Of a DNA stretch of 64,000 nt, positions 36,899 through 37,133 are shown in pieces. Position 1 is the first letter of the stretch. Each line of letters opens with the position of its first letter. Made by a program: the position numbers and the translations under genes. The notes under the pieces were generated by a model. It was not told the DNA's origin, ran no database searches, and worked only from the letters and a program-made list of their open reading frames with translations. The stretch is taken from NCBI RefSeq assembly GCF_001632845.1, contig NZ_CP011994.1, positions 2,366,001-2,430,000 on the forward strand, in the 5' to 3' direction. Origin of the DNA: Ectothiorhodospira sp. BSL-9 (lineage in GTDB: Bacteria > Pseudomonadota > Gammaproteobacteria > Ectothiorhodospirales > Ectothiorhodospiraceae).

Positions 36899-36914
36899 TG
36901 CATCTTGCGTGCCA
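36899..36914 (-). promoter_or_regulatory. Sigma-54 promoter of the rnf operon
   Basis: Minus strand TGGCACGCAAGATGCA: perfect TGGCACG block, and GG and GC exactly 10 bases apart. It lies about 33 bases upstream of the rnfA GTG. Confidence 0.75.
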
Positions 36915-36991
36915 AGGGGGGAATGCACTCTTTAGGCGCACCGTTTATGGGGGTTTGTGGCGGGCTTGCACCATGGTGGTGCAGGTGGTGC

Positions 36992-37007
36992 TGTGAGGAT
37001 CGCGACA
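36992..37007. promoter_or_regulatory. NifA box 1 (TGT-N10-ACA)
   Basis: TGTGAGGATCGCGACA fits TGT-N10-ACA. It is about 87 bases from the rnf -24 element and about 120 from the nifL one, so both promoters are within normal NifA range. Confidence 0.6.
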
Positions 37008-37031
37008 GGCAGAGCCGCCGGTTCGCAGTGA

Positions 37032-37047
37032 TGTGAGGTAACCGACA
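37032..37047. promoter_or_regulatory. NifA box 2 (TGT-N10-ACA)
   Basis: TGTGAGGTAACCGACA fits TGT-N10-ACA and shares the TGTGAGG start with box 1, 40 bases away. It is about 80 bases from the nifL -24 element. Confidence 0.6.
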
Positions 37048-37117
37048 ATGTCCCCACCGGGAGCCATGGGGCCTGAGGGCTGCATTCAGGGTGGGGGAGC
37101 AGGATCAGGGTGATGTA

Positions 37118-37133
37118 TGGCCCGGCTCTTGCA
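37118..37133 (+). promoter_or_regulatory. Sigma-54 promoter of nifLA
   Basis: TGGCCCGGCTCTTGCA: GG and GC 10 bases apart and a perfect TTGCA at -12, ending about 40 bases before the nifL ATG. The -24 block is less perfect (TGGCCC) than at rnf. Confidence 0.65.

Follow-up and report, generated by a model that had tools for sequence, protein, structure and literature searches.

The divergent rnf and nifLA operons of Ectothiorhodospira sp. BSL-9 share a predicted sigma-54 control region with NifA boxes that accompany rnf

The divergent arrangement of rnf and nifLA has been described as widespread, with rnf being regulated by NifA in three model strains (PMC6490700). In P. stutzeri A1501, both operons of such a pair are putative NifA-sigma-54 operons (PMC2820453), nifA and rnfA are NtrC-dependent and carry putative NtrC sites (PMC8443478), and the rnf-nifLA intergenic region of P. 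stutzeri has been swapped in order to remove nitrogen control of nifLA (PMC8219145). In Azoarcus BH72, where rnf1 is under positive NifA regulation, tandem NifA sites are predicted upstream of both rnfA1 and nifL (PMC3916325). The nifA gene of Herbaspirillum seropedicae is transcribed from a sigma-54 promoter that NtrC and, autogenously, NifA control, and rnf is not mentioned in the accessible part of that paper (PMC4422417). Klebsiella nifLA has an NtrC-activated sigma-54 promoter (PMC8443478; also the title of a cited reference), its autogenous regulation is named in another cited title, and it belongs to an Enterobacteriaceae clade without association with rnf (PMC6490700).

A first-pass annotation of the DNA analysed here, made from its letters, had contrasted the locus with Azotobacter, in which nifLA is not known to be NifA-driven, and with Klebsiella, in which it is NtrC-driven. 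This contrast is incomplete, as the P. stutzeri A1501 case shows (PMC2820453). The divergent rnf/nifLA arrangement, NifA control of rnf and predicted NifA sites at nifL (P. stutzeri, Azoarcus) are already in print, as is the NtrC-plus-NifA control of nifA (Herbaspirillum). For Ectothiorhodospira nifLA, no report was found in the open-licence literature, from which most subscription journals are absent. What we add to this known type of switch is a useful inference about which operon owns the sites; the spacing comparison and the separation test behind it were not met in the accessible parts of the cited papers, but may exist in print.

Promoters and regulator sites between rnf and nifLA

The window, i.e. 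the whole 64,000-nucleotide stretch analysed, covers positions 2366001-2430000 of a single-contig 3.55-Mb genome. Its NifL shares 99% identity with the NifL of Ectothiorhodospira haloalkaliphila ATCC 51935, and the genome is that of a purple sulfur bacterium, an Ectothiorhodospira close to E. haloalkaliphila. The rnfABCDGE operon (31701..36866, minus strand) starts with rnfA (36285-36866, minus strand; Pfam match), followed by rnfB, rnfC, rnfD, rnfG and rnfE, the products of which all match NCBIfam families. On the other side of the intergenic region, the plus strand carries nifL (37175..38743; TIGR02938, 686 bits), for which the ATG start at 37175 is our own reading, and nifA (38763..40331; TIGR01817, 700 bits). 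Downstream of nifLA, nifB and a DraG-like gene follow in the same rightward direction, and an IS200-like transposase gene (43141-43827) lies a short distance 3' of them.

Both outward-facing sigma-54 promoters proposed in the first-pass annotation were found, as were the two TGT-N10-ACA boxes between them. The -24/-12 promoter of rnf, TGGCACGCAAGATGCA (36899..36914, minus strand), contains GG-N10-GC and is near-invariant across eight Ectothiorhodospira loci. That of nifLA, TGGCCCGGCTCTTGCA (37118..37133, plus strand), matches TGGC-N7-TTGCW exactly and has the best score in the window; by our own weighted consensus, the two rank within the top four sigma-54-like sites of the 64 kb. NifA box 1, TGTGAGGATCGCGACA (36992..37007), and box 2, TGTGAGGTAACCGACA (37032..37047), neither assigned to a strand, are 40 bp apart, and each has a counterpart at the same place in 8/8 Ectothiorhodospira loci. 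NifA-dependent promoters have TGT-N10-ACA roughly 80-150 bp upstream. Here, the gaps from the boxes are 77 and 117 bp to the rnf promoter and 70 and 110 bp to the nifL promoter, so that the 80-120 bases given in the first-pass annotation were roughly right. With its upstream boxes, rnf has a predicted NifA-dependent sigma-54 promoter, and the nifL promoter likewise has NifA boxes within reach.

Across the whole window the motif shows no enrichment (7 copies against 8.3 expected), but at the window's own rate two copies within 235 bp would occur with P of about 3e-4. Pairs of boxes 15-45 bp apart are found at four places in the 3.55-Mb genome, the rnf/nifL region being one of them, against one place for a reversed-pattern control. 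No sigma-70 promoter or terminator was found in 36850-37200. Neither was an IHF-like site with at most one mismatch to the consensus found in 36899-37133, and the region thus does not resemble an IHF-assisted NifA promoter, unlike what may apply to Herbaspirillum, for which IHF appears in the title of a cited reference.

An element overlooked by the first-pass annotation is a predicted NtrC site, TGCACCATGGTGGTGCA (36967..36983, no strand assigned), which matches the 17-bp consensus stated in PMC8743547 with 0 mismatches. This site, TGCACCA-N3-TGGTGCA, sits between the rnf promoter and the NifA boxes and ends 134 bp from the nifL promoter; NtrC itself is encoded in the genome (TIGR01818, 747 bits). 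It is the only exact match to the consensus in the 3.55-Mb genome, and the second-best NtrC-like site in the window has 3 mismatches. The perfect consensus sets the region apart from P. stutzeri A1501 with its putative sites (PMC8443478), from Azoarcus BH72, for which no NtrC site is described in the accessible part of PMC3916325, and from Klebsiella nifLA, which has a lower affinity for NtrC than glnA (PMC8381380).

Across the genome, sites with at most two mismatches to the NtrC consensus number 29, against 7 for the reversed pattern. The single one-mismatch site precedes a Gcw_chp gene, behind which stands a P-II (GlnK-type) gene, and has a sigma-54 site 110 bp away; one two-mismatch site is located directly upstream of ntrB in glnA-DUF4124-ntrBC, with no sigma-54 site scoring at least 60 within 300 bp of it. 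Such a sigma-54-like site was found within 300 bp of four of the 23 NtrC-like sites examined (of the 29), the rnf/nifL locus included. From this excess over the reversed pattern and from the P-II and ntrB neighbours, the motif appears to behave as an NtrC motif in its own genome. Another two-mismatch site, at about 3155886 (L111 2387), has a strong sigma-54-like site, TGGCATGCGGTTTGCA, at a distance of 69 bp; the short ORFs tested beside it had no Pfam match.

The other two of the window's top four sigma-54-like sites, at 40433 and at 13273 (minus strand), also have TGT-N10-ACA boxes nearby. The former belongs to the nifB promoter region (40333-40448), with boxes at 40333 and 40357 and, unlike the rnf/nifL region, one-mismatch IHF-like sites (at 40405 and 40418). 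The latter is a strong site within 13273-13453, accompanied by an exact IHF-like site at 13302 (minus strand) and by boxes at 13359 and 13438 that fall inside predicted ORFs without a Pfam match. Its target gene is unsure, since the nearest leftward family-matched gene (2Fe-2S ferredoxin-like, 12553-12909) is some 360 bp away.

Conservation and spacing in relatives

The comparison with related genomes was based on 81 loci (80 relatives and the window), of which 67 have rnfA divergent from nifL within 900 bp: 8 from Ectothiorhodospira, which include strain pairs and are not independent, 11 from Chromatiaceae, and 48 others, mainly beta-type, whose titles are mostly Gallionellaceae, Sideroxydans, Thiobacillus, Nitrosomonadales and MAGs. 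Left out were two loci in which rnf precedes nifL in tandem and a single box lies near nifL (L015, L043), three with no rnf in the stretch compared and no box (L017, L037, L049), five cut by contig ends, each with a box (L034, L061, L079, L086, L088), and four in which the divergent rnf operon starts with rnfG (L070, L072, L076, L085). In each of these last four, which are of Rhodocyclales type, a NifA box and sigma-54-like sites separate nifL from the rnfG-first operon.

In all 67 divergent loci, NifA boxes are present, against about 4.9 loci expected from dinucleotide shuffles, and the shared control region suggested by the first-pass annotation is thereby conserved in relatives. In the alignment of the eight Ectothiorhodospira loci, the longer invariant runs fall within the promoter of rnf, both halves of the NtrC site, and box 1; TGT and ACA are retained in box 2, and GG and TTGC in the nifL promoter. 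On the rnf side the geometry is fixed in 8/8 of these loci: counted from the rnf promoter, the NtrC site comes at 66-68 bp and the boxes at 91-93 and 131-133 bp. The distance from the last box to the nifL promoter varies: 59, 59, 61, 86, 86, 102 and 147 bp in the seven loci scored.

Among the 48 other loci, the first box is 120-124 bp from the rnf promoter in 44, and an NtrC-like site (at most 4 mismatches) is 65-68 bp from it in 43 of the 45 loci having one. In 36/47, 57-60 bp separate the main box from the nifL promoter, which would suit NifA action on nifLA too, while the remaining 11 span 43 to 350 bp. The contrast between rnf-side and nifL-side spacing is therefore strong in Ectothiorhodospira and modest elsewhere. 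Chromatiaceae have loose spacing on both sides, with boxes 41-43 bp apart in 11/11.

NtrC-like sites with at most 3 mismatches occur in 8/8 Ectothiorhodospira loci (0.3 expected), 37/48 other loci (1.5 expected) and 1/11 Chromatiaceae loci (0.3 expected). GCACC-N5-GGTGC is exact in 36 of the 56 non-Chromatiaceae loci, always 57-68 bp from the rnf promoter. Since only 3/67 loci match the strict E. coli NtrC core exactly, away from the E. haloalkaliphila type we infer rather than read the NtrC identity of the site. Chromatiaceae (L071-L084) have no NtrC site above chance, yet all six genomes checked encode NtrC. Judged by the IHF consensus, an IHF-like site is present on the rnf side in 41/48 other loci (3.3 expected), 40 of which have it at 44-46 bp, in 4/11 Chromatiaceae loci (0.1 expected) and in 1/8 Ectothiorhodospira loci (0.2 expected), and on the nifL side in 5/46 other loci (1.1 expected).

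NifA boxes where rnf and nifLA are separated

We also drew 369 genomes evenly across the class, and 21 of them, the own genome among these, have nifL. This draw overlaps the first locus set in the window and, judging by identical figures, in L065 and L043. A box was found in 15/15 nifL loci with divergent rnf versus 0/5 without rnf nearby (Fisher 6e-5), the latter having no rnf within about 1.4 kb of nifL and boxes being sought in 700 bp; in the remaining nifL locus, rnf precedes nifL in tandem and one box is present. A distance of 122-134 bp between the rnf promoter and the far box was seen in only 7 of the 13 loci measured, and an NtrC-like site with at most 2 mismatches is present in the rnf-nifL gap of only 3/15 divergent loci.

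Four genomes (T. sibirica, G195, G154 and G050) have a nif-type rnf operon and nifLA apart from each other. Boxes are located upstream of rnf in 4/4 and upstream of nifL in 0/4 (Fisher 0.029); three of these genomes are also among the five of the class draw, so the two tests overlap. Outside the separation test are two class-draw genomes that lack an rnfA match at the cut-off (G285 and G281), and G004, for which there was none. Two of the four separated rnf loci repeat the spacings of the linked ones (123 and 92/131 bp), and two (L119, L175) showed no clear sigma-54 promoter. By our own measure of autoactivation, i.e. boxes at nifL without adjoining rnf, none was seen at the five class-draw loci or at T. 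sibirica nifL.

As controls, we used 12 more distant second rnf operons in which rnfA comes first (L123-L131, L176, L177 and, from the own genome, L179). TGT-N10-ACA is present in two (L127, L129) and a sigma-54-like site scoring 60 in another two (L124, L126); none has both. A weak NtrC-like match with 3 mismatches at about -190 is common to L123-L127. L132-L136 were dropped from the controls, as rnfA lies inside the operon with rnfE ahead of it, and rnfG as well where the stretch reaches that far; the contigs of four of them match the nifL-bearing contigs in length.

A Sideroxydans MAG (rnf in L122, nifL in L049) was dropped as a fifth separated genome: one and the same short tandem repeat is found at the ends of both contigs, which probably means that rnf and nifL are joined through it. 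L122 keeps the rnf-side spacing (68 and 121 bp), no box was found in the 407 bp upstream of nifL in L049, and the rnf-nifL gap has probably been enlarged by the repeat array.

The boxes are best explained as rnf enhancers which nifLA may share, and their distribution suggests that NifA sites are kept first of all for rnf, that is, for electron supply. The first-pass annotation had taken them to imply NifA autoregulation. They do lie within reach of the nifL promoter; as they stay with rnf in genomes where the operons are unlinked, boxes alone do not show that NifA regulates nifLA. Knowing which operon the NifA and NtrC sites belong to offers a direct test of why regulator and electron-supply genes adjoin, and it warns that swapping the intergenic region alters the control of rnf too.

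Proposed regulation of the two operons

The reading that we prefer, with a probability of roughly 0.68, is a bidirectional sigma-54 region in which NtrC would start nifLA and NifA would drive rnf from a NifA-box enhancer. The analysis shows the sites, with their conservation, spacing and link to rnf; from these we read protein binding, activation and the order of events. In nitrogen-starved cells, phosphorylated NtrC would bind its site and start nifLA, possibly rnf too; by analogy with Klebsiella, NtrC is a good candidate for this role. NifA, once made and released by NifL, would then bind the two boxes, which would act as the enhancer of the divergent rnf promoter at a distance fixed within the genus, and the electron supply would thus rise along with nitrogenase. 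NifA may also add to the transcription of nifLA, the boxes being 70-110 bp from the nifL promoter.

In that case the boxes would drive nifLA as well, in a positive feedback loop coupled to rnf. We consider this slightly better than an even bet, and it is compatible with the preferred model. Besides the reach of the boxes, it is favoured by the conserved core of the nifL promoter in Ectothiorhodospira, by the 57-60 bp spacing in most of the other loci, by the reported autoactivation of Herbaspirillum nifA (PMC4422417), by the tandem NifA sites predicted upstream of Azoarcus nifL (PMC3916325), and by Chromatiaceae, which have boxes but no NtrC site above chance. However, boxes accompany rnf rather than nifLA where the operons are apart, and the nifL-side spacing varies in Ectothiorhodospira: going from 59 to 86 bp adds about 2.6 helical turns, although going from 86 to 147 bp adds about 5.8.

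It is also possible, if tentative, that NtrC acts directly on the rnf promoter alongside NifA, and that nifLA borrows an enhancer array kept for rnf. This would predict the fixed rnf-NtrC spacing of 65-68 bp that most non-Chromatiaceae loci show, together with the IHF-like site that most of the 48 other loci have between rnf and the NtrC site. The general nitrogen-starvation regulator would then itself turn on the electron supply to nitrogenase.

An arrangement in which NtrC alone activates nifLA, NifA alone activates rnf, and the two circuits merely share an intergenic region seems less likely to us than the preferred model. The exact NtrC consensus 134 bp away from the nifL promoter, the activation of Klebsiella nifLA by NtrC (PMC8443478) and G285, which has a one-mismatch NtrC-like site 276 bp upstream of nifL and no rnfA match at the cut-off, are consistent with it. 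Against it, the NtrC site keeps a fixed distance to rnf as well, and in P. stutzeri rnf has been called NtrC-dependent (PMC8443478). That the motifs match by chance in GC-rich intergenic DNA, as the lack of enrichment of TGT-N10-ACA across the window might suggest, can be rejected because the motif blocks are conserved in the eight Ectothiorhodospira loci and the boxes in all 67 divergent ones.

A further arrangement was seen in L149 and L150 (Beggiatoa and Thiotrichaceae MAGs), where rnfABCDGE, an RnfH-like gene and nifL stand in same-direction tandem, with a NifA box 122 and 113 bp, respectively, from the rnf promoter. Co-transcription of rnf and nifL, if it happens there, would make NifA feedback direct.
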